Program-made: the position numbers and the translations under genes
Shown: piece after piece, positions 22,264 to 55,156 of the stretch
How positions within the stretch are numbered: the stretch's first letter is position 1
Layout of the letters: every line of letters begins with the position of its first letter
NCBI RefSeq assembly: GCF_013204825.1
Contig: NZ_JABMKV010000001.1
Coordinates: forward strand, 1,054,001-1,118,000
DNA: 64,000 nt
Source of the DNA: Pedobacter boryungensis
GTDB lineage: Bacteria > Bacteroidota > Bacteroidia > Sphingobacteriales > Sphingobacteriaceae
Direction: 5' to 3'
Notes under the pieces: model-generated
Database searches by the model: none
Seen by the model: only the letters and a program-made list of their open reading frames with translations
Told to the model about the DNA's origin: nothing

Positions 22264-22286
22264 ATTCAGCAATATTGGCATTAATA
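22264..22286 (+). promoter_or_regulatory. Shared motif, copy upstream of the AraC-family gene
   Basis: The core CAGCAATATTGGCATTAA lies 61-83 bp upstream of the AraC start. Over 23 positions it matches the copy at 32670 in 20, the copy at 43521 in 18 and the copy at 55134 in 15. Presence before both the regulator and PUL genes suggests an operator that includes autoregulation (inference). Confidence 0.5.
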
Positions 22287-22346
22287 TGAAAGATAGTATA
22301 ATTATACTGTATATTTAATTGACCAATTATAAACCACTGTACTAAC

Positions 22347-23225
22347 ATGAAACCTCAATTATTAAAAGTTTCAACTGGGCCTGCTCAGTCATTTAGTGTA
22401 AGAAGAGATTTAGTTCCTTACATGAACAATAAATGGCATTATCATCCAGAGGTTGAACTTATCCATTTAAAAAAAGGTGTCGGAACTCAATTTATAGGTG
22501 ATAGCATTAAAGGCTTTCGTTCAGGCGACATCGTATTAGTAGGCGCTCATTTAGCTCATTATTGGAGATTTGACGACATGTACTTCAATGACCAATCGAA
22601 AGCTTGTGCCGATGTTAGAGTTGCCCATTTCAGCGAAAATTTTTGGGGTGATCAATTCTTAAATCTTCCAGAAAATAAGGCGATTAAATCATTACTTGAA
22701 AATAGCAGAAGAGGTTTACAAATAAACGGCAAAGTAAAAATAAAAGTGGCCGATTTATTAGAGCAAATGTTAACTGCTGAAGGAACTCAACGCATTGTTT
22801 TGTTAATAGAAGCACTTTCTCTTATTGCTAATTGCAACCAAACCGTAAAGCTTTCCTCAATTGGCTTTAAACAAGATTATGATGAATCTGAGAATATACG
22901 CATTAATGCCATTTACGATTATACCTTGAGTAATTTTAGAAGAAAAATTCATCTAGAAGAAATTGCTAATGTAGCGGTAATTAGCCCAAATTCTTTCTGT
23001 AGATACTTTAAATCTAAAACCCGTAAAACATATTCCAGATTTTTAACAGAAATAAAAGTGGGCCATGCTTGTAAACTATTAATGGAAAATAAATTAAACA
23101 TTAAGCAATTATGCTACGAAAGTGGATTTAACAATTTAGCCAGCTTTCACAAATATTTCAAAATAACAACTGGTAAAAGCCCATTAAACTATCAAAAAGA
23201 ATTTATTTCACACCATAACAATTAA
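22347..23225 (+). CDS. AraC-family regulator with N-terminal cupin domain
   Basis: A 292-residue regulator. The N-terminal half is a cupin-type ligand domain (WHYHPEVELIHLKKGVGTQF; GDIVLVGAHLAHYW), the form that senses sugars or their derivatives. The C-terminal AraC double helix-turn-helix covers about 190-290 (IHLEEIANVAVISPNSFCRYF; LNIKQLCYESGFNNLASFHKYF; GKSPLNYQKEF). It sits directly before lutABC and near the PUL. A motif upstream of its own gene recurs before susC, GH31, GH105 and the beta-helix gene, so it is the best candidate regulator of the locus in this window (inference). Confidence 0.93.
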   Translation: MKPQLLKVSTGPAQSFSVRRDLVPYMNNKWHYHPEVELIHLKKGVGTQFIGDSIKGFRSGDIVLVGAHLAHYWRFDDMYFNDQSKACADVRVAHFSENFWGDQFLNLPENKAIKSLLENSRRGLQINGKVKIKVADLLEQMLTAEGTQRIVLLIEALSLIANCNQTVKLSSIGFKQDYDESENIRINAIYDYTLSNFRRKIHLEEIANVAVISPNSFCRYFKSKTRKTYSRFLTEIKVGHACKLLMENKLNIKQLCYESGFNNLASFHKYFKITTGKSPLNYQKEFISHHNN

Positions 23226-23271
23226 ATAGATTTTATTTAATTGCTCTTAAATCCTAGCTCTTGCCATTTTT

Positions 23272-24012
23272 ATGAAGGTTGCCCTCTTTATTCCGTGTTA
23301 TGTAGATCAATTTTATCCGCAAGTGGCAATTGCTACTTTAGAGTTATTAGAAAATTTAGGAATTGATGTGACTTATCCAAGCTCTCAAACGTGTTGTGGA
23401 CAACCAATGGCAAATTCTGGTTTTGAGCATTTAACTGGCGGATGTAATTCTCTTTTTGTTAAAAATTTTAGTGGTTTCGATTATATCGTCGCTCCTTCTG
23501 GTAGCTGTGTTTTACATATTAGGGAACATCTACATGATGAAAATGAACCTGAATTAGCTAAACATATTGCAGCAACAACTTATGAATTAACTTCATTTTT
23601 GACTGATATTCTGAAAGTAGATGTCTTAAAAAGTAGTTTCCCTCATAAAGTTGGAATGCACCAAAGTTGTCATGGACAAAGAGGCTTAAAGCTGTCGCAG
23701 ATGACCGAATTAAATGCCCCTGATTTCTCTAAACCAGGACAGCTTTTAAATTTAGTAAAAGATATAGAATTAGTAGAACTAGATCGGAAAGATGAATGTT
23801 GCGGTTTTGGCGGCACTTTTTGTGTAGCTGAGGAGACAGTTTCTGTTAAAATGGGAAAAGACAGAGTAAAGGATCACGCTAAACATCATGTAGAATACAT
23901 TACTGGCGTAGATTTGTCGTGTTTAATGCACATGGAAGGAATTTTAAACAGACAACAAAGTCCGATCAAAATAATTCATATTGCAGAAATTTTAAATGGA
24001 GTAAAAGCATGA
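23272..24012 (+). CDS. lutA: L-lactate oxidation complex subunit A (Fe-S oxidoreductase)
   Basis: LutA is one of three subunits of the LutABC/LldEFG complex that oxidises L-lactate to pyruvate. At 246 residues it has the usual length and two CCG domains with cysteine motifs CCGQPMANSG, then HQSCHGQRGL and CCGFGGTFC, which bind iron-sulfur centres. It begins 47 bp after the AraC gene and overlaps lutB by the ATGA junction at 24009-24012. Lactate is a product of L-fucose and L-rhamnose breakdown, which fits the fucosidase-rich neighbour locus. Confidence 0.92.
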   Translation: MKVALFIPCYVDQFYPQVAIATLELLENLGIDVTYPSSQTCCGQPMANSGFEHLTGGCNSLFVKNFSGFDYIVAPSGSCVLHIREHLHDENEPELAKHIAATTYELTSFLTDILKVDVLKSSFPHKVGMHQSCHGQRGLKLSQMTELNAPDFSKPGQLLNLVKDIELVELDRKDECCGFGGTFCVAEETVSVKMGKDRVKDHAKHHVEYITGVDLSCLMHMEGILNRQQSPIKIIHIAEILNGVKA

Positions 24013-25385
24013 AAATTCTAGATCATGCTGAAAGAGCGGATATCTTTAACGAAGATGAAAAAAGAGTAGATTGGCACGATGAAACCCTATGGTGGATTAG
24101 ACAGAAAAGAGATAAGTCTGCACATCAAATTCCAGAATGGGAGAATTTGCGCAATGCTGCATCAGCTATTAAATCAAATACACTTTCTAATTTACACGAC
24201 TATTTACTTGAGTTTGAAAAAAATGCATTAAAGAATGGTATCATCATCCATTGGGCAGTTGACGCTAAAGAACATAACGAGATTGTACATCGCTTGTTAA
24301 AGGAAAAAGGCATCAATAAAATGGTGAAAAGTAAATCAATGTTGACTGAAGAATGCCATTTAAATGAATATTTGGAGCAAAATGGAATAGAAGTCATAGA
24401 TTCTGATTTAGGAGAACGCATTGTACAATTGGCAAAAGAACCACCAAGCCATATTGTTTTACCTTGTATTCATAAAAAGAAAGAAGAAATTGGCGAATTA
24501 TTTCACGAACATTTAGGTACACCAAAAGGAAATGCAGATCCACAAACACTTACAGAAGCTGCTCGTGTACATTTAAGAGATACTTTTTTAACTCGAAGAG
24601 CTGCGCTAACAGGTGTTAATTTTGCAGTTGCAGAAACAGGAGAAATTGTAATCTGTACTAACGAGGGCAATGCCGACATGGGAGCGCATTTAGCTGATAT
24701 TCATATTGCTTGTATGGGCATAGAGAAAATCATCCCAAAACGTGAGCATCTTTCTGTGTTTCTAAGATTATTGGCCAGGAGTGCAACCGGACAACCGATT
24801 ACCACCTATTCTAGCCATTTTGCTAAACCAAGAGATGGCAAAGAATTACATATCATTTTGGTAGATAACGGTAGAACTCGTCAGTTGGGTAGAGAAGAAT
24901 TTAGAAATTCATTAAAATGCATTCGTTGTGGAGCTTGTATGAATACCTGCCCGGTGTATAGACGTAGTGGAGGACATAGTTATCATAATGCCATTTCTGG
25001 GCCAATTGGAGCTATTTTAGCACCAAATTTAGACATGAAACAGTATGCAGATTTACCTTTTGCATCCACTTTGTGTGGTTCGTGCTCAAATGTTTGTCCG
25101 GTTAAAATTGATATACATGATCAACTTTACAAATGGCGACAAGTATTAGTAAAAGAAGGTTACGCTACCACAGCTAAGGAAATTGCAATGAAAACTATGG
25201 CCACTACCCTGTCTTCGCCTACACTTTATAAAATAGCCGGAAAAGCTGCAAGAACAACACTTAAATATGCACCATTAATAATAAACAATAAGTTTAATGC
25301 TTGGTATTTACAAAGAGAAATGCCCAAGGTACCAAAAAGTTCATTTGGAGAATGGTATAAAATCAATAGAAAGAATAATGAATAG
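24009..25385 (+). CDS. lutB: L-lactate oxidation complex subunit B (double [4Fe-4S] protein)
   Basis: The start at 24009 (MKILDHAERADIF) gives 458 residues and an ATGA overlap with lutA; a longer frame from 23919 runs through lutA and is unlikely. The N-terminal LUD-type domain is followed by two ferredoxin-like clusters, CIRCGACMNTCPVYRR and CGSCSNVCPVKIDIHDQLYKW. These segments match LutB/LldF, the electron-transfer subunit. The three lut genes overlap one another, so translation is coupled. Confidence 0.93.
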   Translation: MKILDHAERADIFNEDEKRVDWHDETLWWIRQKRDKSAHQIPEWENLRNAASAIKSNTLSNLHDYLLEFEKNALKNGIIIHWAVDAKEHNEIVHRLLKEKGINKMVKSKSMLTEECHLNEYLEQNGIEVIDSDLGERIVQLAKEPPSHIVLPCIHKKKEEIGELFHEHLGTPKGNADPQTLTEAARVHLRDTFLTRRAALTGVNFAVAETGEIVICTNEGNADMGAHLADIHIACMGIEKIIPKREHLSVFLRLLARSATGQPITTYSSHFAKPRDGKELHIILVDNGRTRQLGREEFRNSLKCIRCGACMNTCPVYRRSGGHSYHNAISGPIGAILAPNLDMKQYADLPFASTLCGSCSNVCPVKIDIHDQLYKWRQVLVKEGYATTAKEIAMKTMATTLSSPTLYKIAGKAARTTLKYAPLIINNKFNAWYLQREMPKVPKSSFGEWYKINRKNNE

Positions 25386-25965
25386 TAGAGATCAGATTTT
25401 AGCAGCTGTTAAAGCAAATCAACCAGAATTAACTTTATTGCCTCAGCTCGATTCTTTTTTTCAAGGACAAGAAACTGCTTTAATCGAAAAATTCACTCAA
25501 GTTTTAACTGGAATTGGAGGAAAAGTAACAGTTGTAGCGGATACTACTGAGATTATCTCCTTATTAAAAGCAAACTATTCATTAGACCAAATCAGAGTGA
25601 TTTCGCCTTTATCTACTATGCAAGAAATCGCCATTAATGCTATTGACAATCGTCATCCACATGAGCTACAAAATGTTGAACTTGCTATTTTACCTGCTCA
25701 TTTCGCAGTAGCGGAAAATGGGGCATGTTGGTTAAGTGAAGCAATGTTATTGGATAGGGTTTTGCCTTTTATTACACAACATTTAATTTTGATTGTTAAT
25801 AAAATCGATATTTTACCAACCATGCATCATGCGTATGAAAAAATTGGAAATGAGCATTATGGTTATGGCACTTTTATCGCTGGGCCATCAAAAACTGCCG
25901 ATATAGAGCAGAGTTTAGTACTTGGTGCACATGGCGCAAGATCGCTCTGGGTATTTTTAATTTAA
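25378..25965 (+). CDS. lutC: L-lactate oxidation complex subunit C (LUD domain)
   Basis: The start at 25378 (MNSRDQILAAVKANQPE) overlaps the lutB end by 8 bp and gives 195 residues, near the usual LutC length; the longer frame from 25297 is inside lutB. The LUD domain shows VAENGACWLSEAM and an Ile/Leu-rich core, followed by YGTFIAGPSKTADIEQSLVLGAHG at the C terminus, the most conserved stretch of the family. It closes the lut operon, 83 bp before the GH36 gene on the same strand. Confidence 0.92.
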   Translation: MNSRDQILAAVKANQPELTLLPQLDSFFQGQETALIEKFTQVLTGIGGKVTVVADTTEIISLLKANYSLDQIRVISPLSTMQEIAINAIDNRHPHELQNVELAILPAHFAVAENGACWLSEAMLLDRVLPFITQHLILIVNKIDILPTMHHAYEKIGNEHYGYGTFIAGPSKTADIEQSLVLGAHGARSLWVFLI

Positions 25966-26048
25966 TGTCAAATTAATTGAGTAGCTAGCTAATAACAACT
26001 ACTTAAATAGCCGTTAGAATTGTTTCTTTTATATCAGAACTAAAATAT

Positions 26049-28205
26049 ATGAATCCGAAAATTATACTCTTTAGCATTTCTTTATTTTGCTCATCCTTTT
26101 TATGGGCACAAAATCGTACTCCAATTGTTATCGAAACTCAAAATACTAGTTTAGTTTTTGCTGGCGATGAAGGTGGAAAATTATTCCAACGTTATTTCGG
26201 AAAAGCATTATCAAAAGATACGTATGCGAAATTAAGAAACGGTATGGAAGCCTATATTGGTGCTGGCATGGAAGATGTTTTCGAACCTGCTATTCGTATG
26301 GTACATGCTGATGGAAATCCATCTTTAGATTTGCGGTTTAACAAAGTAGAAACCAAAAAATTAGATGATGATATCACTCAAACTGATATCTATTTAAAAG
26401 ATCCAGTTTATCAAACCGAAGTTATTTTACATTTCAAAGCGGCCTTTAAATCGAATGTATTAAGCAGTTCGACAGAAATCATCAATAAAGAAAAAAATAG
26501 CGTTGTTTTAAGTAATTATGCTTCTTCTATGTTACATTTTGATGCTTCAAATTATTTTCTCACTCAATTTCATGGAGATTGGGCTCGTGAAATGGATATG
26601 CAAGAAAGTCAATTAACGAGTGGCATTAAAATAATTGATAGCAAATTAGGCAGTAGAGCAAATATGTATCAAAGTCCGGTGTTTTTTTTAGCACCAAATA
26701 AAATATCGACAGAAACAGAAGGCGAAGTAATTGCTGGCACAATTGCATGGACAGGTAATTTTCAGTTTGTATTTGAAGTAGATAGAACGAATAAATTAAG
26801 GATAATTTCGGGCATTAACCCTTATGCTTCTACTCTTACTTTAAAAGCTGGTGAACATTTTATGACTCCAGAATTTATATTTACATATAGTGCCAATGGT
26901 AAAGGCCAGGCCAGTAGAAATTTACATACATGGGCTCGTGTTTATGGAGTTTTAGATGGTTTAAAACCTCGAATGACCTTATTAAACAATTGGGAAGCCA
27001 CACATGTGAAATTTGACCAAGAAAAATTGGTTGAATTATTTGATGGATCGAAAAAATTAGGGCTTGATTTATTCTTGTTAGATGACGGTTGGTTTGGGAA
27101 TAAATATCCTAGAAATGATGATAAGGCTGGTTTGGGTGATTGGCAAGAAGATCGTAAAAAACTGCCAAATGGAATAGGTTATTTGGTAAAAGAGGCAACT
27201 AAAAAAGGAATCAAATTTGGTATTTGGTTAGAGCCAGAAATGGTAAATCCTAAAAGTGAGTTGTACGAAAAACATCCAGATTGGGTTTTAAAACTTCCAA
27301 ATAGGGCTGAAAATTACCAACGTAATCAGTTGATTTTAGATTTGATTAATCCAAAAGTTCAAGATTTTGTATTTAATCTCGTAGATAAAATGATGACCGA
27401 AAATCCTGGTTTAGGCTATATTAAATGGGATAACAATCGATTCATGTCAAATACTTATTCTCCTTATTTAGGTAAAGATCAATCGCGTTTATTTATTGAT
27501 TATACAGAGAGTTTCTATAAAGTAATGCAACGTATTAGAGGTAAATATCCTCATTTAGGTATTATGTTATGTTCTGGTGGCGGTGGACGAACAGATTATG
27601 GTGCACTTAAGTATTTCGATTCGTTTTGGCCAAGTGATAATACTGATGCCGCCGAACGTGTATTTATTCAATGGGGTTATTCTTATTTCTTCCCTTCTAA
27701 TACTATTTCTAGTCATGTAACTTCTATGGGTAAGCAAACTCTTAAATTTAGAACAGATGTAGCGATGATGAGCAAATTGGGTTATGATATTAGTGTGGAT
27801 AAAATGACGCCTGAAGAAATTAACTTCAGCAGTGCTGCTATTGCAAATTATAACCGATTAAACCCTATTATTTGGTATGGTGATTTATATCGTTTAGTAT
27901 CTCCGTATGATGAAGATAGAGCAGTATTAATGTATAGTGATTCGACTAAAAATAAGGCCGTTTTGTTTAGCTATAATTTAAATTTAAGGAAGAAACAAAT
28001 TTTCGGAAAAGTAAAACTTCAAGGTTTAAATCCTGATCAAGAATACACTATTACAGAAACTAATTTGATTCCGGGAGCAGCAGCAGAAAGTCCTGAAAAT
28101 GGCAAAGTTTATACAGGAAGTTATTTAATGGAAATTGGTTTAAATGTTTCTCCTGCTAAATTAAGACCATTGAGCAGTATTGTTTTAGAAATTACAAGCA
28201 AATAA
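26049..28205 (+). CDS. GH36 alpha-galactosidase
   Basis: A 718-residue secreted enzyme that removes terminal alpha-D-galactose. The signal peptide ends after FLWAQ. GH36 landmarks are clear: LFLLDDGWFG and DWQEDRKKLPNGIGYL in the barrel, GIWLEPEMVNP, the nucleophile region YIKWDNNR, LCSGGGGR, and the acid/base region FWPSDNTDAAERV. Length and layout match the bacterial GH36 group with N-terminal beta-sandwich and C-terminal beta-domain. It is the first PUL gene on the left and the only catabolic hydrolase on this strand besides the beta-helix protein. It may share a transcript with lutABC. Confidence 0.94.
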   Translation: MNPKIILFSISLFCSSFLWAQNRTPIVIETQNTSLVFAGDEGGKLFQRYFGKALSKDTYAKLRNGMEAYIGAGMEDVFEPAIRMVHADGNPSLDLRFNKVETKKLDDDITQTDIYLKDPVYQTEVILHFKAAFKSNVLSSSTEIINKEKNSVVLSNYASSMLHFDASNYFLTQFHGDWAREMDMQESQLTSGIKIIDSKLGSRANMYQSPVFFLAPNKISTETEGEVIAGTIAWTGNFQFVFEVDRTNKLRIISGINPYASTLTLKAGEHFMTPEFIFTYSANGKGQASRNLHTWARVYGVLDGLKPRMTLLNNWEATHVKFDQEKLVELFDGSKKLGLDLFLLDDGWFGNKYPRNDDKAGLGDWQEDRKKLPNGIGYLVKEATKKGIKFGIWLEPEMVNPKSELYEKHPDWVLKLPNRAENYQRNQLILDLINPKVQDFVFNLVDKMMTENPGLGYIKWDNNRFMSNTYSPYLGKDQSRLFIDYTESFYKVMQRIRGKYPHLGIMLCSGGGGRTDYGALKYFDSFWPSDNTDAAERVFIQWGYSYFFPSNTISSHVTSMGKQTLKFRTDVAMMSKLGYDISVDKMTPEEINFSSAAIANYNRLNPIIWYGDLYRLVSPYDEDRAVLMYSDSTKNKAVLFSYNLNLRKKQIFGKVKLQGLNPDQEYTITETNLIPGAAAESPENGKVYTGSYLMEIGLNVSPAKLRPLSSIVLEITSK

Positions 28206-28511: not shown

Positions 28512-29396
28512 CTACTCACAAACTGCATCACCTTCGGCAATACAGAAATCAGCAAATCGTACTGCTTCATCTTTTATGTACGATTTATTATTCAAACTTC
28601 TATATATCCCCCATTTTGGGCGACAAAAAGTAGTTCCTGTTCTCCATAAATCGATATTATTAGTTGCATAGTTTAACAACAAAGCACCATCGCTTACATT
28701 TTTTATGTTAATCTCGTAGGTACCGTTGGTTCCGTATTTAATTTTCTCTATTACCTCAACCCAATTACCTTTAAATGGTGCAAGGTTTACTGTTTTTAAT
28801 TTTCCTAAGCTGGTCGCCGCCGAACCTGCGGTATGAATAATTTCAAGTTGATCTGGATTACCATATCGTGGAGTAATGGTGATTAAAGGCGAACCATCGT
28901 CACCATCCCCAGCTTTAATTTGATGAATATGTGTAAAACTTGGTGAGGGTTTAAAGCCTGCATCCAATTTAAATTTCCATCTGTAAGTTACTGTTTCTCC
29001 AATTGTTCCCTTTACATTATCTGGCGATGGACCATAACTTTTAATTTCATTTCGCTGTCTATCTGTTGAGCCATTGCAACGATCATCATCAGGTGTAACA
29101 TGCATATAAAACTCGAATACATTTTTCTTTAATATATCATCATATACTTCTGCAATATGACGACCAAAAGCAGCGTGTCCACAATCTGGAGTTTCTTCTG
29201 CATTGCTACCTAATTTACTGTTAATCAATTCATACGTATTTCCAGGTCCGTCAGCTTGTAACAATATGCCTAACTTTGGTGCAGTAACAGGTGGCTTTAT
29301 AATTTCAGGTTCAGGTTGTACATCAGGTGTTTTCTTTTTACAGTAAACTATTGAAAAAGAGCCCAAGATTAACAGTAGGATTATTTTTTCTTTCAT
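28512..29396 (-). CDS. Jelly-roll polysaccharide-lyase-like lipoprotein
   Basis: About 294 residues from the ATG at 29396, which overlaps the stop of the upstream gene as TAATG; an in-frame ATG at 29414 is the alternative. The N terminus is a lipoprotein signal (LLLILGSFSIVYC) followed by a Pro-rich linker. The mature domain looks like a concanavalin-type jelly roll of the lyase-like group: DRQRNEIKSYGPSP, TYRWKFKLDAGFKPS, FTHIHQIKAGDGDDGSP, FKGNWVEVIEKIKYG and RPKWGIYRS. Lyases of this fold cleave glucuronan, alginate or heparin-like chains. The exact family is not certain. It is likely the anchored endo-acting enzyme supplying substrates to GH105 nearby. Confidence 0.6.
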   Translation of the reverse strand: MKEKIILLLILGSFSIVYCKKKTPDVQPEPEIIKPPVTAPKLGILLQADGPGNTYELINSKLGSNAEETPDCGHAAFGRHIAEVYDDILKKNVFEFYMHVTPDDDRCNGSTDRQRNEIKSYGPSPDNVKGTIGETVTYRWKFKLDAGFKPSPSFTHIHQIKAGDGDDGSPLITITPRYGNPDQLEIIHTAGSAATSLGKLKTVNLAPFKGNWVEVIEKIKYGTNGTYEINIKNVSDGALLLNYATNNIDLWRTGTTFCRPKWGIYRSLNNKSYIKDEAVRFADFCIAEGDAVCE

Positions 29397-31447: not shown

Positions 31448-31468
31448 TCTAGATTTATTGATTATAAA

Positions 31469-32599: not shown

Positions 32600-32669
32600 G
32601 ATTTAATTGATTTGGTTAATGCAATAAACAAAAATTGATGCTATAGATTATTTCCTGTATTGGCTACTC

Positions 32670-32692
32670 ATTCAGCAATTTTAGCATTAAAA
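32670..32692 (+). promoter_or_regulatory. Shared motif, copy upstream of GH105
   Basis: Core CAGCAATTTTAGCATTAA; 20 of 23 positions match the copy before the AraC gene. A weaker half-site TATTGGCTA (32659-32667) lies exactly 21 bp, two helical turns, to the left of TTTAGCATT. Two half-sites on one DNA face suit an AraC-type protein (inference). Confidence 0.5.
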
Positions 32693-32755: not shown

Positions 32756-32778
32756 CTTTATTGCCAATATTAGCTTAG
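32756..32778 (-). promoter_or_regulatory. Shared motif, inverted copy upstream of the beta-helix gene
   Basis: The minus strand reads CTAATATTGGCAATAAA; the core AATATTGGCA is identical to that of the copy at 22264, and 14 of 23 positions agree overall. It points the other way from the copy at 32670, matching the divergent genes it lies between. Confidence 0.4.
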
Positions 32779-46127: not shown

Positions 46128-46130
46128 CTG

Positions 46131-48605
46131 TTAAAAATTAAAAGTATACGTTTTACCGGCTACAGTTGGTAAATCATAATCGGTTGATTTAGGGATAAGT
46201 ACTTTATTTAGTTTAGCTTCTTTTGAAATTAACGGCATTTTGATTTGCGGCATTTCATAAAAAGCATTTGAATTCTTATCCTTTGCTAATTTAAATGGAA
46301 TTTTACTTTTATCTATTTGAGAATCATTTAACCGTAAGCGACAATTGCCTCCTAATTTAGATTGAATTTTTAATTGAGCTATCCGTCCATTTTTCCAAGC
46401 AATTGCAATTTCAAAACCGCCACGAGCAATTAAACCACTAATTTCTCCATTAGCCCACACATCAGGCAATGCCGGTAAAATATACACTGCGCCATCATGA
46501 GATTGTAGCAACATTTCGGCTATACCAGCTGTACAACCAAAATTTCCATCAATTTGAAATGGTGGATGAGCATCTAATAAATTTGGATACGTACCTCCAC
46601 CCTTTGTGTTTACCGTATCGAGTTTACTCCCCACTAATCTTAATTGATCTGCAATGAGTTTGTAGGCATGATTTCCCTCTAAAAACCTTGCCCATAAATT
46701 TACTTTCCAGCCCATAGACCATCCTGTTGCTGGATCACCACGATATAATAAAGAAGTTTTTGCAGCATCAAATAATTCTGGTGTACGGTTTGGCGAAATC
46801 TGATTACTTGGATATACACCATAAAGATGTGATACATGACGGTGTTTATCATCAACACGATCTAAATCAGTTAGCCATTCTTGTAGCTGACCATATTTTC
46901 CAATTTGCATTGGTGCTAATCTATCTAGTGTCGAACCTAATTTCTTTCTAAAATCAGCATCTAAATTTAAGATTGATGCCGCTTTACTCGTTTTAGTAAA
47001 TAAATCGAATAACAATTGATTATCCATTGTTGTACCAGCTGAAATAGATATTCTTTTGCCTTCCACATACGTATTCTCTGGCGAAACTGAAGGTACAACT
47101 ACCAGCCATTTATGAGAAGGCTCTTCTTGTAAAATAGCTAAATAAAATTCGCAAGCGCTTTTTAACACTGGATAATATTGCTTTAGAAAATTTTTATCGC
47201 CCGTAAATTGATAATGATCCCATAAATGTTGGCTCAACCAATTTCCACCCATAGGCCATAAACCTGGAAAAACACGATCAACAGGTCCTGTAATTCTAAA
47301 TAAGTCTGTATTATGATGTGTAACCCAACCTTTAGCGCCATACATTACTTTCGCCGTTTCTTGTCCGGTGATGGATAAATCTTTTACCATTTTAAATAAA
47401 GGATCATGCAGTTCGGTTAAATTGGTAACCTCGGCAGGCCAATAATTCATTTCTGTATTGATATTAATGGTGTATTTACTATCCCAAGGAGGAAGTAATT
47501 TATCATTCCATATTCCTTGTAAAGTAGCTGGCTGAGTACCTGGTTGTGAACTAGAAATCAATAAATATCGTCCGTACTGAAAGTAAAGCGCAGCTAAATG
47601 CGGATCATTCGACTTTGCAAATTCTAAAATACGTTGGTCGGTAGGTTTATTTACCGCAGCAGAAACACCAAGATTTAATTTTACGCGATTAAAGTATTTT
47701 TGATAGAATTGAATATGCTCTTTTAAGGCTACATCATAATTTTTAAGCACAGCTTTGTTTAAAAATTTCGCCGCTTTCTCTGCTGCATTTCCACTGAGAT
47801 CATTATACTTTTTAAAATTAGTAGCGATAGAAATATAGACAATAGCAGAATTGGCATTTTTGACTTCGTAGGTATTGTTTTTTGCTGTAATAGTACCGCC
47901 TTGGTTAACAACTTTAACTTGCGATTCGAATTTAATCTGTCCTTTTTCTCCTTCGTGATCTGATGTTATTCCATTTAAAATTAACTTGCTATTGCTTATT
48001 TTTTGTTCACTTTTTTGTGGCGAAGCTAGCGAAGAGGTAAAAGAAATTTGCCCAGGTTTACTGGCTGTTAATCTAACAATCATTACTTGATCTGTAAAAG
48101 ATGAAAATATTTCTCTTTTATAATGTACACCATTCAAATCGTAAGTAACTGTTGCTACCGCTTTTTCGATATTTAAATCCCGATAATAGTTTTTAGCTTT
48201 TTCATGACCTTTAAAATCAAGAAACAAATCCCCTACGGTTTGATACACCATTCCACTGTTTTTTTTCGGGAACATTTTCACATCAGCAATTGCTTGTGCC
48301 TCTTCAAATTTCCCTTCAAAAATCAATTTTCTCAATTCAGGGATTGCTGCTCCAGATTCTGCAGTAATATTCTGATTAGGCCCACCCGACCACACTGTCT
48401 CTTCGTTTAATTGCAATTGTTCTTTAGCTGGATTACCAAAAACCATTGCTCCTAACCTGCCATTTCCAATTGGCAATGCTTCATTCCAATTCGCAGCGGG
48501 TGCTGAATACCATAACTTTAGAGCAGCATCATTTTGTTTGTTTTGCGCAAAAACAGAAACAGAAAGGCAAATCCAAATGCCAAAAACTAAGGTCTTTTTT
48601 AACAT
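46131..48605 (-). CDS. GH95 alpha-L-fucosidase/alpha-L-galactosidase (2)
   Basis: An 824-residue secreted paralogue of the neighbouring GH95, clearly diverged. It has WYSAPAANWNEALPIGNGRL at the start of the mature protein, YTININTEMNYWPAEVTNLTE with the Asn pair, LWPMGGNWLSQHLWDHY, and PPFQIDGNFGCTAGIAEML with the base Asp. The signal peptide is ICLSVSVFAQ-type. Two GH95 side by side suggests two different fucose or galactose linkages in one substrate. An intrinsic terminator lies just upstream, between it and the beta-barrel gene. Confidence 0.94.
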   Translation of the reverse strand: MLKKTLVFGIWICLSVSVFAQNKQNDAALKLWYSAPAANWNEALPIGNGRLGAMVFGNPAKEQLQLNEETVWSGGPNQNITAESGAAIPELRKLIFEGKFEEAQAIADVKMFPKKNSGMVYQTVGDLFLDFKGHEKAKNYYRDLNIEKAVATVTYDLNGVHYKREIFSSFTDQVMIVRLTASKPGQISFTSSLASPQKSEQKISNSKLILNGITSDHEGEKGQIKFESQVKVVNQGGTITAKNNTYEVKNANSAIVYISIATNFKKYNDLSGNAAEKAAKFLNKAVLKNYDVALKEHIQFYQKYFNRVKLNLGVSAAVNKPTDQRILEFAKSNDPHLAALYFQYGRYLLISSSQPGTQPATLQGIWNDKLLPPWDSKYTININTEMNYWPAEVTNLTELHDPLFKMVKDLSITGQETAKVMYGAKGWVTHHNTDLFRITGPVDRVFPGLWPMGGNWLSQHLWDHYQFTGDKNFLKQYYPVLKSACEFYLAILQEEPSHKWLVVVPSVSPENTYVEGKRISISAGTTMDNQLLFDLFTKTSKAASILNLDADFRKKLGSTLDRLAPMQIGKYGQLQEWLTDLDRVDDKHRHVSHLYGVYPSNQISPNRTPELFDAAKTSLLYRGDPATGWSMGWKVNLWARFLEGNHAYKLIADQLRLVGSKLDTVNTKGGGTYPNLLDAHPPFQIDGNFGCTAGIAEMLLQSHDGAVYILPALPDVWANGEISGLIARGGFEIAIAWKNGRIAQLKIQSKLGGNCRLRLNDSQIDKSKIPFKLAKDKNSNAFYEMPQIKMPLISKEAKLNKVLIPKSTDYDLPTVAGKTYTFNF

Positions 48606-48645
48606 ATTAATGATTTAATAAAAACTAGTAGCTAGTAGCCATACT

Positions 48646-48674
48646 AAAAAGGCCACCTAATGGGCGGCCTTTTT
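48646..48674 (-). terminator. Intrinsic terminator inside the PUL, after the beta-barrel gene
   Basis: AAAAAGGCC (48646-48654) and GGCCTTTTT (48666-48674) form a 9-bp stem with an 11-nt loop, and on the minus strand a T5 run closes it. It lies between the SusCD/FAS1/barrel genes and the hydrolase genes, so it would lower readthrough into the GH block. Confidence 0.8.
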
Positions 48675-48690
48675 GCTAAAATAATTAATT

Positions 48691-49356
48691 TTAAAATAGA
48701 TATCCCAGTGAAAATCCGGCTACTCTATTATGTGATTTAAAGTTATCATTATTACTAATGTTGGCTAAACCGAATCCATAATTTAAGTCAATAAACATTC
48801 CGTTCTTCAATCTGAAACCCGCTAAAGCATTAAGCCCATAATCTCCAGATTTTAACTCGGTTGGTTGATCGCCAAATTCTATACTTTCTGCACTACCTCT
48901 TTTAATGTAGATATCTCTTTTGTCAATTGATCTTATTCTACCTCCGATAGCATATGCGCCATAAACTCCGCCACCTATATATACTGTTCCTAAATTAACT
49001 TCTTTATTGTAAAGCAAGTTAACAGGAAGTTCTAAATAAGCTAAGTTGATATTACGCTCAGTAGTGTATGGCACTGGGTAACCGAAAGAAATACTATTAT
49101 GTTGTTCTACTGATTTATTTCCTTTTACTGAAAAATTTAAACCAGTTTGTAAAGTTGTGGCTTTGCCAACAGGGGTAGTTGTAAAAACTCCAAGTAAAAA
49201 TTTAGCACTTATTTTATACTCTGAAGAGGGACTAAAACTAGTTCTAGGTTGTAAGGATGGGAAATTTAAACCAGCTCTTACACCAAACTTTGTCTTTTGG
49301 GCCATTAAGCTATGACCAGCTATTAGTATGGTTATGAGGATTAAAAGTTTTTTCAT
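48691..49356 (-). CDS. Small outer-membrane beta-barrel protein (porin-family PF13568-like)
   Basis: A 221-residue protein: signal peptide MKKLLILITILIAGHSLMAQ, then KTKFGVRAGLNFPSLQ, a typical start of 8-strand Bacteroidota barrels. Strand-rich segments follow (LQTGLNFSVKGNK; LAYLELPVNLLYN; GTVYIGGGVYGAYAIGG; LNALAGFRLKNGMFIDLNYGFGL) and the C terminus is GFSLGYLF, ending in Phe as outer-membrane barrels do. It probably sits in the outer membrane beside the SusCD complex. Its role in uptake is unknown. Confidence 0.85.
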   Translation of the reverse strand: MKKLLILITILIAGHSLMAQKTKFGVRAGLNFPSLQPRTSFSPSSEYKISAKFLLGVFTTTPVGKATTLQTGLNFSVKGNKSVEQHNSISFGYPVPYTTERNINLAYLELPVNLLYNKEVNLGTVYIGGGVYGAYAIGGRIRSIDKRDIYIKRGSAESIEFGDQPTELKSGDYGLNALAGFRLKNGMFIDLNYGFGLANISNNDNFKSHNRVAGFSLGYLF

Positions 49357-49381
49357 TTGTTTATATTTTAATTAAAATGAA

Positions 49382-50233
49382 TTATCTAGATGGACGAACT
49401 GTAACTCCCCAAACATGTATAGTGCCATTGGTACACTTATAGTTCGATGATCTTACGATTAAACCTCCGTTAAAAAACACTTTAGAATCTGCCGTATTAG
49501 ACACCTTTAAATTAAACTTACCTTCTGGATCAAAACCTGTAGGTGCTGTTCCTGTACCAGTATAATTAAAAGCAAATACTGCAGGTGTGCCTGTACTTGC
49601 CGTTGTAAAACCAGGAGTAGTGGATGGTGTAACCATATATCCTAATCGGGTTTCTTTTGTTGCAACACTACCAGCAGGCAGTAATGACTGAATATCTACA
49701 CCTGATGGGGTTAGGTTATCATAATTATAATCTCCTAATCCAATTAGATACAATAGATATTTCCTCACCGTTTCTTTATCATAATCTTTCCAGCTTTTAG
49801 TACCAGCTGAAGTAGTTGGAATGCCAGAAGTAGGTGTAGTGAATTTTATAGTTCCATCTGGATTTTTAACTATTGTCGGATAATCGATAAAAAAACAGTT
49901 TGATTGTAAGGTTTGTGAACCATTTACTCTTCTAATTGCATCGTTATGTAAAAAGATATATGTTCTATTTGGTTTTGTATATTCCAACGTATCAATTTCA
50001 GAATAATCAATTGCTTTCTTCATCCATCTAAAAACGGTATCATTTGGATTATTTCCATCCGCTCTCGATTTCAAATAGGCCCATGCAGTCATGTTCACAT
50101 TTTCTTGAAGGATTGATTTTTTATAATCATAATCTTGTTGAAGATCTAAACCAAACATGCTACATCCCGATATAAATAAACTAAGAGCAACCAGCACCAC
50201 TAGTCTATTAAATGTTATTTTTATTTTTTTCAT
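49382..50233 (-). CDS. FAS1 (fasciclin)-like surface lipoprotein
   Basis: A 283-residue protein with a lipoprotein signal (LVALSLFISGCS). The mature part looks like a FAS1 domain with an insert: NVNMTAWAYLKSRADGN and FRWMKKAIDYSEIDTLEYTK, then RTYIFLHNDAIRR (first FAS1 strand), a variable middle, and NGTIHVWGVTVRPSR at the end, like the NG-IH motif. FAS1 lipoproteins next to SusD are common in PULs and are thought to be surface glycan-binding or adhesion proteins. It lies between SusD (12-bp gap) and the barrel protein. Confidence 0.7.
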   Translation of the reverse strand: MKKIKITFNRLVVLVALSLFISGCSMFGLDLQQDYDYKKSILQENVNMTAWAYLKSRADGNNPNDTVFRWMKKAIDYSEIDTLEYTKPNRTYIFLHNDAIRRVNGSQTLQSNCFFIDYPTIVKNPDGTIKFTTPTSGIPTTSAGTKSWKDYDKETVRKYLLYLIGLGDYNYDNLTPSGVDIQSLLPAGSVATKETRLGYMVTPSTTPGFTTASTGTPAVFAFNYTGTGTAPTGFDPEGKFNLKVSNTADSKVFFNGGLIVRSSNYKCTNGTIHVWGVTVRPSR

Positions 50234-50245
50234 GATATAAATTTC

Positions 50246-51808
50246 TTAGTCTGTATATGGTGCATTTTGAGTTAATAAAGAGTTAGAGTTTAGCACGTTT
50301 CTGTTTAATGGCCACAGATATTTTCTTTTATCTGTACCAAAACCGGTAGCATCTGCAGGTAATACTCCAGCTCTTACTTGACGAGCTTTAATTATTGGAT
50401 CCATTACCTGAATTACTCTATCTGTACGTACTAAATCAAACCATCTTTTTCCTTCTGCAAAAAGTTCATATTGTCTTTCCTGAATAATTGCATCTTCTAA
50501 TTTAGTTTCATCTAATACACCAGGTGTTACCGAAACTTCTGGACTACTTGTTGTATAAACAGGTATCATTGCTCTTGTACGAATGAAGTTTAAATATTTT
50601 AAAGAGTTGGTTTTGTCGCCAGTTTTATTTAACAGCTCTGCATATAATAAATATATATCCGCTAGTCTATACATAGAAAGATAAACAACAGAATTGTTCG
50701 CATCTCTATCAGCTGCAGCTACGGTATACGTAGTTGTACCTATAGTTCCGGTTCCTTTATAAAACTTCCAAACGCGATCTCTAGCATCAGTTTTGGCAAT
50801 ATCATAAGTTGCTCTATGTCTAATATCTGTAGGATATTTCAAAGGCCAATCGTAAAAAATGCCATAATCGATTACTAAAGGCGAATTATTTGGAGAAGTA
50901 GAAACTCCAGCCATACAAGGGCAACCATTTACAACATTATCCCAATGAATATTCCATATAGCTTCAATGCTATTCGATGGGTCGGTAAACATTTTATTCC
51001 AGTTAGCAGTAGGTTCTAAATCTGTAATTGCTGTACCACCATAAGTAGCTTTTGCAGGTGCTTTAGCAGTTCCTAATAATGTAAACCATTTTTTAGCATT
51101 TACATAATCTTTACGCCACATGTAAACATCCATTAATGCTGCACAAGCTGCTCCTCTACTAAATTTAAATACACTATAATTTGCAGTATTTACATTGTTA
51201 TAAGCGAATTCCAAATCAGGGATAATTACAGTATCGAAAATTTTATCTACACCGTCTCTAGCTTGTTTTGCATCTAAAGTAGCATCCTCAAAAGGAGTTA
51301 GTTTAATCGGTGCATCCCCCCAAGTTCTTACAATATAAAAGTAAGCCATTGCTCTTAGAGCTCTACTTTGTGCGATATTATCATTAATAATTAATGGTGT
51401 AACTAATGCCGGATTAATTTCTGTCTTAGCAATACCTGGAAAATATTTAAGATTTAAATTGGCAATGTTAATTACCTTAAACATACTAGACCAATCTGAA
51501 AATGGATTACCAGCTGTTAACCCATTTAATTGTAGTTCTGCATAAGTAGAATTTGAGTTGCCCCCTCTTTCAAAATTATCCGAACGAGCTTCACCCCACA
51601 TGGTGTATTTATTGTTAAACTGTGATTCTCCAACCATTGCTTGTTGAAAATTCCCATATAATGAAGCCATTGCACCAGTCATATCTTTGGCCGATTTGTA
51701 AAAATCTTCTGCCCTGATGGCAGTTACGGGCGGAACTTCTAAAAACTTTTTACAGCTTCCTAACATTATCATTACTGTTAAAAAAGCAATACTTGCTATC
51801 TTTTTCAT
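50246..51808 (-). CDS. SusD/RagB-family glycan-binding lipoprotein
   Basis: A 520-residue surface lipoprotein that lids the SusC transporter and binds oligosaccharides. The lipobox is MLGSC at residues 15-19, and the SusD start KKFLEVPPVTAIRAEDFYKSAKDM is typical. TPR-like helices occur through the middle (LRAMAYFYIVRTWGDAPI; YLLYAELLNKTGD) and the C terminus has the family pattern RQYELFAEGKRWFDLVRTDR and YLWPLNRNVLNSNSLL. It starts 8 bp after susC. Confidence 0.96.
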   Translation of the reverse strand: MKKIASIAFLTVMIMLGSCKKFLEVPPVTAIRAEDFYKSAKDMTGAMASLYGNFQQAMVGESQFNNKYTMWGEARSDNFERGGNSNSTYAELQLNGLTAGNPFSDWSSMFKVINIANLNLKYFPGIAKTEINPALVTPLIINDNIAQSRALRAMAYFYIVRTWGDAPIKLTPFEDATLDAKQARDGVDKIFDTVIIPDLEFAYNNVNTANYSVFKFSRGAACAALMDVYMWRKDYVNAKKWFTLLGTAKAPAKATYGGTAITDLEPTANWNKMFTDPSNSIEAIWNIHWDNVVNGCPCMAGVSTSPNNSPLVIDYGIFYDWPLKYPTDIRHRATYDIAKTDARDRVWKFYKGTGTIGTTTYTVAAADRDANNSVVYLSMYRLADIYLLYAELLNKTGDKTNSLKYLNFIRTRAMIPVYTTSSPEVSVTPGVLDETKLEDAIIQERQYELFAEGKRWFDLVRTDRVIQVMDPIIKARQVRAGVLPADATGFGTDKRKYLWPLNRNVLNSNSLLTQNAPYTD

Positions 51809-51816
51809 ATCTAATT

Positions 51817-54800
51817 TTATAAGCTAATGTTTATACCAAAACCAAATTCTCTACGCTTAGGATATTTACCACCATCGGTTCCTGGCGTTAATGGATTATC
51901 GTTACTAAATTCTGGATCAAAACCTGAGTAATTTGTCCATGTTAATAGATTGGTACCATAAACAAATAATGAAAGCGCTTTCAACTTATATTTATTAATT
52001 AACGCAGGTTGGAATGAGTAATTTAATCTTGCACTTGATAATCTTACAAATGAAGCATCTTCTAAATAATAGCTATTTACACCTCTTTTTTGATTTCCAT
52101 TATTGTCTTTTGTTGGGAAATATGGATAAATCGCAATATCTCCTTCTTTTCTCCATGCGCCGTAAATAGCTTCAGGAAATGCAGTTCCATTTGTAGAGCC
52201 AAAAGTTGAAAAACTCTCTTTAAATGAGTTATAGATTTGTCCACCAATAGTAGCATTTAACATTACGTTTAATGAAAATCTTTTATAACTGAAAGTGTTA
52301 GATAAACCTAGGTAAAAATCTGGTGTTGCATTACCAATAATGCTACGATCAGCATCATCAATTAAACCATCTTTGTTTACATCTAACCATTCTGTATCTC
52401 CACCTTTAAGAAAACCTGCAGGACCACTCACTTTTTGAATAGCACCGGTATAACGTTGTCCATTTAAAGTATAATATTCAGCAGATTGCCCATCTGGAGC
52501 AACATTTACTGGTTCTAATCTAGTCCAGTCTGAAGAATAAGCATTAGATGCAGTCCATCTGTAAATACCTAACTGTTTATAGCCATAAAAATCTCCTAAC
52601 CTACCACCTGGTGTAATTAGATATCTAGTACCTGCAATAAATGGCTCATTTTTGAACAGGCTTTTAACTCTTCCTTGTTCAAACGAGATATTCGCATTTA
52701 CAAACCAAGTAAAATTAGGTTTTGCAACTGGTGTACCAGAAAGTGAAAATTCAGCACCATTGGTATACAAATCACCAGCATTTACCCGTACTGTTTGGAA
52801 ACCAGTTTCTTTTGGCAATAAGTTATCCATTAACAATTTGTTAGTTGCTTTATGGTAATAATCAACTACCAATAGTAACCTTCCACCAAACATACTAATA
52901 TCAGTTCCTAAATTGGTTTGAACTGTATTTTCCCATTGAATTTCTGGATTACCTAATCTATTTGAAATTACGGCACCTGCATCTCCTAAATAACTTACAT
53001 CTCCGAAGCTTACTAAAGTAGCATCTTCATTATCACCAATACCATTGTTTCCTTGCTGCCCAATACTTACTCTAATTTTTGCATCATTTAACACTTTTCC
53101 TTTAGCCCATGACATAAATTTCTCATCAGATAAACGCCATGCCAATGAACCAGATAAGAAATTACCCCATTTATTATCAGTACCAAACTTAGATGATCCA
53201 TCTCTTCTAAATGTGCTATTAAGAATATATCTACCTTTGTAATTATAACCTACACGAGCAAACAACGAGGCTAATGAATTACCACCGCCACCAGAGTTAC
53301 TATTTCTAATATCTATATTACTTAAGTTAAAATTGGTAATTTGCTCATTTACAAAAGAGCCAGGTAATGCTTGTAACTTTAAAGATCTATTATCAACTCT
53401 CGACGATTCTACACCTAACGTTGCATTAATAACATGATCTTTTCCAATGGTTTTATCATAATTTAAGAAAGATTGTAATGTCCAGTTAAAACGTATCGCA
53501 GAAGTTTGATTTCCTCTATTCTCATTTCCATTGTCATCTAAAAACTCCGGTTGAAAATACTTTGTGTTGTTATTGGTTAATGATCCACTTCCAATTGCTG
53601 TAAATCTTAAATCTTTATAAATTTTATATTCAAGATTATTGGTAATGGCCGCCCCATAACCATCAGCTATATTGGTTTCTAGTAAAGCATTTGCAATTGG
53701 ATTACGTTTACTTGAGGTATAACTTGTTAATGAACCATCTGGTAAGTAAATCCTCAAGTTATTTGGTCTATCAAATACGGGATTTAAAGAGTTATTTGTA
53801 CTCCATGTAGATTTTTTATTCCAGTTAAAGGTAATATTGGTATTATTTCTGAGTTTAGGAGTTACTTGAAAATCGATATTCATCCTTCCTTGCAATCTTT
53901 TAGACCATGTATTTAATACACTTCCTTTATCATCCAAATAATTTAAACTCGAATAATAAGTTAAGCCTTTTTGTCCACCACTAATACCTAATTTAATATC
54001 ATTTAAAATAGCTGTATTACCTAATAACATATCTTCTAAATAGTTATCAGCATTGTAAGCAATGTTTAATGAATCGGTATTGCTACCTGAGCTTGGGTTA
54101 TTATTGTTTTGAATTTGTCTCCATAAACGTAAATCTTTTGAATTTGCTTGTTGTATAGTATGCGCAATGTTACCTATTTTACGACCATAAGAAACATCTA
54201 CTCTTGGTTTACCTACCTGACCTCTTTTAGTGGTTACTAAAACAACTCCATTTGCCGCTCTAGTTCCGTAAATAGCAGTAGATGCAGCATCTTTTAAAAT
54301 TTCGATGTTTTGAATATCGTTAGGATTAATAGCAGAAATTCCTCCTTCGCTAACAACACCATCAATAACAAACAATGGATTATTACCAGCCGCACTAAAG
54401 GTAGAAGCTCCACGAATTTGAATAGAACCTTCAGCACCTGGTTCTCCATTATCGTTAATTACTAATACACCAGATGCCTGACCTTGAATGGCATCATATA
54501 TATTAGTAGGTTGGCGTTCTGCAATTTGAGCAGCATTAATAGAAACAGTAGATCCTGTTAAATCTGATTTTTTAGAAGAACCACCATATCCTTGAACTAC
54601 TACCTCTGTTAAAGCAGCAATATTTTCTTGCAACACAATAGAAAGTACTTTTCTATCGCCTACCAGTTCTTCGTAAGGATTATAACCGATATAACTGAAT
54701 ATCAACTTTGCTTTTTGATCTGGAACTTTAATCGAGAATTTTCCATCCTTATCAGTTAGTGTAGAGGTAGTTCCATCTTTTACTTTAATACCTACACCTG

Positions 54801-54942
54801 GAATTGTTTCTCCTTTGCTGTCTTTAACTGTACCTGTAACAGTAATTGTTTGTGCAAATGAAACAATTGGAGACATAAGCAGTAAGAAAACGAATGTTTT
54901 CCAAATGTTATGGTTAATGAGTTTTGTAAATGTCTTGTCCAT
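51817..54942 (-). CDS. SusC/RagA-family TonB-dependent oligosaccharide transporter
   Basis: A 1041-residue outer-membrane transporter. After the signal (LLMSPIVSFAQ) comes a carboxypeptidase-regulatory-like domain (TVTGTVKDSKGETIPGVGIKVKD), the plug with FVIDGVVSEGGISAINPNDI and IEILKDAASTAIYGTRAANGVVLVTTKRG, and a barrel ending RREFGFGINISL. The plug wording is the SusC signature. It is the first gene of the minus-strand locus, has a 538-bp upstream gap and no ECF sigma or anti-sigma gene beside it. A shared-motif copy lies 192-214 bp before the start. Confidence 0.97.
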   Translation of the reverse strand: MDKTFTKLINHNIWKTFVFLLLMSPIVSFAQTITVTGTVKDSKGETIPGVGIKVKDGTTSTLTDKDGKFSIKVPDQKAKLIFSYIGYNPYEELVGDRKVLSIVLQENIAALTEVVVQGYGGSSKKSDLTGSTVSINAAQIAERQPTNIYDAIQGQASGVLVINDNGEPGAEGSIQIRGASTFSAAGNNPLFVIDGVVSEGGISAINPNDIQNIEILKDAASTAIYGTRAANGVVLVTTKRGQVGKPRVDVSYGRKIGNIAHTIQQANSKDLRLWRQIQNNNNPSSGSNTDSLNIAYNADNYLEDMLLGNTAILNDIKLGISGGQKGLTYYSSLNYLDDKGSVLNTWSKRLQGRMNIDFQVTPKLRNNTNITFNWNKKSTWSTNNSLNPVFDRPNNLRIYLPDGSLTSYTSSKRNPIANALLETNIADGYGAAITNNLEYKIYKDLRFTAIGSGSLTNNNTKYFQPEFLDDNGNENRGNQTSAIRFNWTLQSFLNYDKTIGKDHVINATLGVESSRVDNRSLKLQALPGSFVNEQITNFNLSNIDIRNSNSGGGGNSLASLFARVGYNYKGRYILNSTFRRDGSSKFGTDNKWGNFLSGSLAWRLSDEKFMSWAKGKVLNDAKIRVSIGQQGNNGIGDNEDATLVSFGDVSYLGDAGAVISNRLGNPEIQWENTVQTNLGTDISMFGGRLLLVVDYYHKATNKLLMDNLLPKETGFQTVRVNAGDLYTNGAEFSLSGTPVAKPNFTWFVNANISFEQGRVKSLFKNEPFIAGTRYLITPGGRLGDFYGYKQLGIYRWTASNAYSSDWTRLEPVNVAPDGQSAEYYTLNGQRYTGAIQKVSGPAGFLKGGDTEWLDVNKDGLIDDADRSIIGNATPDFYLGLSNTFSYKRFSLNVMLNATIGGQIYNSFKESFSTFGSTNGTAFPEAIYGAWRKEGDIAIYPYFPTKDNNGNQKRGVNSYYLEDASFVRLSSARLNYSFQPALINKYKLKALSLFVYGTNLLTWTNYSGFDPEFSNDNPLTPGTDGGKYPKRREFGFGINISL

Positions 54943-55133
54943 ATAATGAATATTTTGTTAGGTTAAATTTTGATTTTTGTGAAATGATCAAAATTCATTC
55001 ATGTTGGATAAGCATTTAAGGATGCGATTAAACGCATACTTTTGCGGTTTGGTGTCATAGTTGAATAGTTTATAATTGGTTATACAATAGAAAGAAATTC
55101 TCAACTTCCTTTAGTGAATGTTTTTAGCGTATT

Positions 55134-55156
55134 AATCAGTTATTTTGGCATACCTT
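55134..55156 (+). promoter_or_regulatory. Shared motif, copy upstream of susC
   Basis: Core ATCAGTTATTTTGGCAT; it shares TTATTTTGGCAT with the copy before GH31. A second half-site TTTTAGCGTA (55122-55131) lies exactly 21 bp to the left of TTTTGGCATA, with 8 of 10 bases equal. This direct repeat at two helical turns is the typical layout of an AraC-family site. Confidence 0.55.

Follow-up and report, generated by a model that had tools for sequence, protein, structure and literature searches.

In the excerpts of PMC3878776, the polysaccharide utilization loci (PULs) of Bacteroides thetaiotaomicron are mostly assigned to hybrid two-component system (HTCS) and SusR-like sensors, and monosaccharides to separate regulators. 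Fucose catabolism in that organism is under FucR, a GntR-family protein whose regulon is a single operon; the NrtR-family AraR, listed in the same excerpts for arabinose and arabinan, is a precedent for one regulator covering both layers. The AraC-type RhaR regulons of Bacteroides and others control rhamnose catabolic genes (excerpts of PMC3870299). In Zobellia, the AraC-family protein CgrA is needed for normal growth on the substrate of the carrageenan PUL and has distal regulon members (PMC5698469, in part). The subject here is a 64,000-nucleotide stretch of the Pedobacter boryungensis genome (assembly GCF_013204825.1; 3.5 Mb, 9 contigs), contig NZ_JABMKV010000001.1 (C1), positions 1,054,001–1,118,000, termed the window. 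It carries an AraC-family gene (araC, positions 22347–23225), a PUL, and a repeated DNA motif upstream of both.

The motif is likely the operator of the AraC protein, a predicted PUL activator responding to L-fucose or to an intermediate of fucose oxidation; a probability of about 0.78 is given to this reading. The AraC protein would bind the repeated operator before the PUL units and activate their transcription, with L-fucose or a fucose-oxidation intermediate as the probable inducing ligand. As the best reading of the sequence, a soluble, likely L-fucose-responsive AraC activator would drive the PUL and fucose oxidation, and by inference also the oxidation of lactate. Degradation of the polysaccharide, predicted to contain fucose, and consumption of its sugar would thereby likely be turned on jointly. 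Like RhaR, the regulator belongs to the AraC family and is associated with deoxysugar catabolism, but its proposed targets are seven PUL units including susCD and an unlinked oxidative fucose operon, rather than the rhamnose catabolic genes reported in PMC3870299 (excerpts). Fucose catabolism is under a sugar-specific regulator in B. thetaiotaomicron as well; unlike FucR, as far as the excerpts of PMC3878776 describe it (PULs being under separate HTCS/SusR sensors), the predicted AraC regulator would cover both the PUL and the fucose-catabolism layers. CgrA differs in its substrate, and the excerpts describe no operator motif for it (PMC5698469, in part). A search of the open-licence PMC literature found no Bacteroidota fucose regulator of the AraC type linked to a motif of this kind. 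A known family and an AraC-like layout are combined here with a regulon, an operator and a link to fucose oxidation that were not found in the literature searched.

The operator is about 29 bp long, ATTGGCTA-N3-ATTCAGCAATTTTGGCAT, with two direct half-sites 21 bp apart. Expectation maximization (EM) on the regions upstream of araC in relatives returned the motif AATATTCAGCAATTTTGGCAT. It is a direct repeat, of the 21-bp period typical of operators of AraC/XylS-type sugar regulators, and does not read as a palindrome. A second TTGGC half-site is located at exactly −21 (94 aligned sites, nine of them from the genome under study), and the score of this second box (B-box) peaks at −21 with z = 4.3 for 44 non-AraC sites and z = 1.4 for 50 AraC-gap sites. 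Good operators have a strong half-site, TTCAGCAATTTTGGCAT, promoter-distal and a weaker half-site, ATTGGCTA, promoter-proximal, 21 bp apart. At araI1-araI2 of E. coli the half-sites bound by AraC are also 21 bp apart, the promoter-distal one strong and the promoter-proximal one weak. The half-site layout is the same, but here it is found with a Bacteroidota −7-like box and before many target units.

The initial annotation had proposed a 15-mer core at five places. The 15-mer as quoted is not enriched (45 matches in the window with up to 3 mismatches, 37.3 expected); it is exact at one of the five places (43527), and the other four carry 2–3 mismatches. The coordinates given fit a longer 21-mer, ATTCAGYWATWTTGGCATNAA. 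Four copies (22264, 32670, 43521 and 55134, all on the + strand) are present in intergenic gaps as described. The inverted copy at 32756 is doubtful, with a score of 3.0 in the relatives' matrix, and the beta-helix gene assigned to it is a weak target. The second half-site exactly 21 bp away, reported for two copies, was seen by eye at 32658 and 55122. Over the whole 3.5-Mb genome the 21-mer gives 16 matches with up to 3 mismatches (4 for the reversed control), and the four best are 22264, 32670, 43521 and C1:1119179, the last 1.2 kb beyond the window end. Outside the locus, in the stretches fetched around the matches, its places are mostly in coding sequence. The motif is real and is stronger than the initial annotation proposed, with its form and site list in need of correction.

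A matrix was trained by EM on the araC upstream regions of 79 relatives, the window and its near-twin L017 being excluded; the sample of 80 AraC loci represents the best 80 of 456 relatives. This relatives-only matrix was applied to C1:1054001–1128000 (the 74-kb locus) and to 400 kb of the same genome, sampled as twenty unselected stretches of 20 kb. At a score of at least 17 the locus has five matches, each of them in a gap (22261, 32667, 43518, 55131 and 65176), and none in the twenty stretches. The next match in the locus, just under 17, is at 30517 and is coding. At a score of at least 13, the locus has 7 matches (2 coding) and the background 5 (5 coding), with none in the 39 kb of background gap sequence. 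A dimer pattern for whole-genome searches, drafted after the sites had been inspected, gives 8 places at up to 2 mismatches; seven of these are in this 47-kb locus and all seven are in gaps.

In the loci of the 79 relatives, at a score of at least 16, there are 48 matches in araC gaps (partly training data), and 29 matches in 152 kb of non-AraC gaps vs. 7 in 1,433 kb of coding sequence, an approximate 39-fold enrichment of gap over coding. Nearest genes were tallied for the 27 other-gap matches with a gene no more than 400 bp away. These are SusC (6, in 5 loci), beta-helix protein (4), GH31 (3; GH, glycoside hydrolase family), a 552-/553-aa gene of dehydratase size (3), PF05426 lyase (2), a 110-aa gene of mutarotase size (2), GH29 (2, in one locus), and one each of GSDH, GH36, LutA, a 683-aa protein and a 335-aa gene. 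Of the 27 matches, 21 point away from the nearest gene. The site before susC is found at the same place in relatives L018, L019, L023 and L024, and the site before GH31 in L018, L023 and L024. The fucosidase genes of some relatives likewise carry the operator.

The sites could have arisen by chance, or could be a promoter element common to AT-rich gaps in general, and the lack of enrichment of the quoted 15-mer would fit this. This is strongly disfavoured: no background gap reaches 13 and all five background matches are coding, the enrichment in gaps of relatives is about 39-fold, and the spacings of 21 bp and to the −7-like box (below) are fixed. The initial annotation had named good matches at random across coding sequence, or absence from related PULs, as observations that would speak against its interpretation. 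The locus has 5 gap and 0 coding matches at 17 or above, with 0 in 400 kb, relatives have 29 gap vs. 7 coding matches, and several of the same genes carry the operator in related species. Both tests support linking this AraC gene, by way of one operator, to several PUL transcription units.

The features of the locus are given below. Units were assigned by gene order and gene families by Pfam. Operators were scored with a dimer matrix of 33 columns built on 35 non-AraC sites of relatives (background maximum, 15.6), and "phased" denotes a TTG at position 65 or 66 from the operator start.

22251–22283, + strand: araC-gap operator, dimer score 35.3 (top of the 74-kb locus), reading toward araC, the orientation suited to a divergent promoter, which is now missing at this place.
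22310–22321, + strand: candidate araC −7 element TATATTTAATTG, TTG at operator position 68.
22347–23225, + strand: AraC-family regulator, 292 aa (HTH_18, HTH_AraC).
23272–25965, + strand: lutA, lutB and lutC, L-lactate oxidation (CCG, LUD_dom, Fer4, LutB_C).
25963–25995, − strand: GH36 operator, dimer score 16.9, matched by the whole-genome dimer search with 1 mismatch. Its half-sites, TTAGCTA and TTGACAT, are 21 bp apart, and one end of the operator overlaps the final bases of lutC.
26049–28205, + strand: GH36 alpha-galactosidase (Melibiase, GH36 N and C).
28512–32599, − strand: unit of a GH88/GH105 family protein (31469–32599), a 683-aa protein and a PF14099 polysaccharide lyase.
32622–32628, − strand: −7-like element of GH105, TTTATTG, at the fixed position from the operator.
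32657–32689, + strand: operator of the GH88/GH105, 683-aa and PF14099 lyase unit, dimer score 34.1, phased.
32756–32778, − strand: claimed beta-helix copy, doubtful.
35445–43449, − strand: unit of GH31, PF05426 (alginate-lyase-family) lyase, GH29, GH88/105 and GH29.
43473–43480, − strand: −7-like element of GH31, TTTACTTG, by position from the operator.
43508–43540, + strand: operator of the GH31 unit, dimer score 19.5, phased, near half-site poor.
43584–54942, − strand: unit of susC, susD, a 283-aa protein, an outer membrane protein barrel, GH95 and GH95.
55085–55093, − strand: −7-like element of susC, TTTCTATTG, by position from the operator.
55121–55153, + strand: susC operator, dimer score 27.9, phased, a perfect match (0 mismatches) to the whole-genome dimer pattern.
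55384–55416, − strand: GSDH operator, dimer score 20.6, phased, with exact TAGATTTG.
55444–55451, + strand: GSDH −7 element TAGATTTG, by position from the operator.
55481–57216, + strand: sorbosone-dehydrogenase-like protein and cytochrome c (GSDH, Cytochrom_C).
57285–64000, − strand: unit of a 323-aa protein, GH29, SASA esterase, GDSL lipase and the 3′ part of GH28, a gene that continues beyond the window end.
65166 in window coordinates (C1:1119166), outside the window: operator of the GH28 unit, score 28.7, phased.
69191 in window coordinates (C1:1123191), outside the window: operator before a chondroitinase-B-like gene, weak (score 10.8), not phased.

Adjacent susC and susD with glycan-degrading enzymes mark the locus as a PUL. 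Every unit has an upstream operator, araC-lutABC included, that of the unit with the chondroitinase-B-like gene being weak. The sites at 25963 (− strand, GH36) and 55384 (− strand, GSDH) in the window, and at C1:1119166 and, weaker, C1:1123191 outside it, were absent from the initial annotation. Its observation that the PUL lacks a local HTCS or extracytoplasmic function (ECF) sigma regulator agrees with the Pfam scan, which found no such domain in the open reading frames covered (those from 15892 onward, some small ones apart). The GSDH-like protein and cytochrome c, with an operator of their own, suggest that the regulon includes periplasmic oxidation of a sugar. A weak match at 48670 (13.9) was set aside, being weak and in the opposite orientation. 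Two other observations were made outside the window. Imperfect ~21-bp repeats of the ACCCAAACGNAAAGCCTTTCG type are located just upstream of the GH28 operator (L097:14270–14560, C1:1119270–1119560). An operator-like site (17.3) is found at L098:19870 (C1:1144870) near the start of a 792-aa open reading frame, and is coding if the longest start is correct.

Taken in the direction of the target gene, gap sites have their weak half-site closest to that gene. A TTG is found at position 65 (27 sites) or 66 (30 sites) from the operator start in 57 of 75 de-duplicated gap sites. The largest TTG column has 30 entries, with 9 or fewer in 1000 circular shifts. About 32 bp separate the operator end from a downstream TTG, itself part of a −7-like box of the Bacteroidota type; the letters around the phased TTG resemble the consensus of that box, TAnnTTTG (PMC9723704, in part). 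Among the eight sites of this genome (32756 excluded, given its score of 3.0), the five at 32657, 43508, 55121, 55384 and 65166 are phased. The background has 15 weaker matches (score of at least 8), and all are unphased. Class II AraC-type promoters have their operator at one set distance directly before the core promoter, and the layout here, from operator to −7 box, reads as that of an AraC-type activator adjoining the core promoter. By analogy with E. coli AraC, a dimer with bound ligand would touch RNA polymerase at the place of a −33 element. The protein might instead be a repressor relieved by its ligand. The orientation of the araC-gap operator, opposite to that of the seven target sites, might suit an autorepressed gene, but activation is favoured because the target operators are upstream of the −7-like box at one distance and not over it; repression is considered improbable.

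The araC gap differs from the other gaps. Of the 79 relatives, 43 have a site scoring at least 16 there, and its strand never varies. The upstream neighbour is divergent in 40 of the 43 with the site vs. 18 of the 36 without it, and among the 40 it is a fucose gene 19 times. A phased −7 box is found on the divergent side in 19 of 24 araC-gap sites. A simply autoregulatory site was dropped as an explanation on these two grounds, the divergent neighbour and the phased box on its side. The araC-gap site probably served the fucose operon as its operator at first. In the window, the divergent gene is no longer present beside araC and the phased TTG is absent on that side; the core of the operator is fully conserved in P. 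planticolens, where the GH105 operator (32657) is also largely conserved. Autoregulation of araC is plausible. A second, weaker phase is directed toward araC: of 24 de-duplicated araC gaps, 6 have a TTG at operator position 68, a count attained in 0 of 1000 shifts, though these rows are mostly from one clade. This second −7-like element is kept in the araC clade of the window.

The link to fucose is based on neighbouring genes. Some AraC orthologues adjoin a permease, a rhaM-type mutarotase, a GD_AH dehydratase, a short-chain dehydrogenase/reductase (SDR), an FAH hydrolase, an amidohydrolase and a second SDR. Pfam identified seven genes of a fucose-oxidation set in Olivibacter (L073) and three in Pedobacter (L019); BLAST to the operon of P. 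boryungensis identified such genes in, e.g. Mucilaginibacter, Ginsengibacter and Flavihumibacter. At 40% identity, 36 of the 80 AraC loci have at least one fucose-oxidation gene and 21 have three or more; lut genes are found in 15 and GH29/GH95 relatives in 25. Of twenty background stretches, none holds any fucose-oxidation, lut or GH29/GH95 class. Eleven of the 80 loci hold none of the main classes, and in nine of these a GH29 relative (32%–33% identity) follows araC; Pfam confirms the GH29 after araC in L059, a locus of the same type outside the eleven.

P. boryungensis has a full fucose operon at C1:827–837 kb, ~240 kb from the araC locus. In this operon (L121) and in L073, Pfam identifies the dehydrogenase, lactonase, dehydratase, second SDR, FAH hydrolase, mutarotase and permease of a predicted oxidative L-fucose operon. 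The gap upstream of the P. boryungensis operon has a weak operator (13.2, L121:9236) and, in correct phase with it, TTTATTTG. In a set not used in training, the 30 best-scoring permease loci from 60 genomes of the same genus, P. boryungensis included, the best site is phased in 23 and unphased in 7; 19 sites score at least 13, and 27 of the 30 loci have the dehydratase adjoining. The initial annotation had placed the motif before araC and four PUL units; the regulon appears to be larger, and tied to L-fucose catabolism and lutABC. The lutABC genes start 46 bp after araC, and the four genes are likely one operon. Oxidation of fucose yields pyruvate and L-lactate. The position of lutABC beside araC may be accounted for because fucose oxidation would leave L-lactate, and lutABC would be induced together with araC to burn it.

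L-fucose is inferred as the substrate of the operon from the GH29/GH95 neighbours and, by analogy, from the non-phosphorylative fucose locus of Campylobacter jejuni. That locus, as described in excerpts of PMC12566272, shares an SDR dehydrogenase, an amidohydrolase, a sugar transporter and an altronate-hydrolase-like fuconate dehydratase (the last hypothesised there), and has a different regulator; no PUL is described for it in the excerpts. The same regulator and operator could respond to another deoxy- or L-sugar (L-rhamnose, L-galactose), or to an oligosaccharide or uronate from the polymer. The mutarotase of the operon matches a model named for rhamnose, the AraC protein aligns weakly to the RhaS model, and the locus has GH88/105, GH28 and lyase-family genes. 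L-Galactose can be a substrate of GH95 enzymes. On the other side, both GH29 and GH95 are found in the locus and in many orthologue loci, and the dehydratase, SDR, amidohydrolase and transporter match the C. jejuni gene set (PMC12566272, in part). Another inducer is possible, though unlikely, and L-fucose is retained as the probable one.

The AraC protein is 99% identical to that of P. planticolens. It has a C-terminal double helix-turn-helix (HTH) of the AraC type (Pfam HTH_18, 66.4 bits; HTH_AraC, 36.7 bits; both above cut-offs). Its N-terminal region has no Pfam match, and the NCBIfam RhaS model aligns over residues 29–283, far below its cut-off. An AlphaFold model made from 40 orthologues (pLDDT 84.8, pTM 0.56) displays a sensor domain of beta strands, located between residues 16 and 95, and a DNA-binding domain of seven helices. 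Foldseek finds it to resemble ToxT, Rns, RhaR and AraC, and the regulatory domains of RhaR (5u93) and AraC (2arc); the AraC structures matched include those with L-arabinose and with D-fucose. The model thus displays a predicted N-terminal cupin-like sensor domain, with a pTM of only 0.56. The HTH recognition segments are nearly invariant among orthologues, in line with the conserved operator. In P. insulae (L018, L020) there are two AraC copies ~33 kb apart on one contig, one beside a PUL and fucose genes and the other before lutABC.

The operator could belong to another regulator and be near araC by coincidence. Candidates are a paralogous AraC on contig C3 (C3:181885–182739, 57% identical), whose HTH segments are similar, and global regulators, e.g. 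the Crp-like protein encoded at 5651, Crp being listed for multiple sugars in Bacteroides (PMC3878776, in part). However, the motif is in the gap of AraC orthologues in 43 of 79 relatives and no operator is found in the 500 bp before the paralogue. Strong matches are confined to the araC locus, with a weak one at the fucose operon. The 21-bp direct repeat is as for other AraC regulators (excerpts of PMC3870299) and does not read as a palindrome. Ownership by another regulator is regarded as quite unlikely.

Several observations weigh against assigning the operator and its regulon to the AraC protein. Among relatives, 36 of 79 have no araC-gap site of at least 16 despite a nearly identical HTH; the recognition segments being nearly invariant, a changed specificity does not explain the missing sites. 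No match is found before susC in L088, L092 and L093, where araC is directly before susC. The whole-genome dimer pattern gives 37 matches vs. 21 for its reversed control, and of the first 30 places checked, 22 of the 23 beyond the seven locus gap sites are coding (including 30515) and one is in a gap. The pattern misses the GH31 operator at 43508, whose near half-site is poor, and the site of the fucose operon, which scores a weak 13.2. The site at 69191 (10.8) is below the background maximum. Three of the eight sites of this genome (22251, 25963 and 69191) are unphased. A TTG at position 65 is also found in 3 of 11 coding matches, 2 of 16 weaker matches are phased in stretches selected for earlier matches, and two weak coding matches in the locus, 44312 and 62253, are phased. 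A well-scoring operator-like site (24.6) at 30515–30547 is inside the 683-aa gene, and is unphased. The mutarotase named for rhamnose counts here as well. The EM run used the top 40 rows each round, with seeds from a single relative and without a shuffled-sequence control, and the counts from the 79 relatives are not independent as these share ancestry.

In its widest form, the reading is that one soluble L-fucose-sensing AraC protein would control a single regulon of outer-membrane import and glycan-cutting genes, the oxidative fucose operon and L-lactate oxidation, from Pedobacter to Chitinophagaceae, by an operator in −7 phase. The fucose operon would have moved ~240 kb in the lineage of the window, leaving its operator in the araC gap. 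This wider proposal is given an even chance. The regulator-operator system is of an ordinary kind, but the picture is unusually full and open to direct tests: for environmental Bacteroidota it supplies at once a regulator, an operator, a probable inducer and some nine target promoters. The idea of a monosaccharide-sensing AraC protein that commands a whole PUL becomes readily testable, and the operator-to-−7 rule is a handle for finding more AraC-run promoters across the Bacteroidota.

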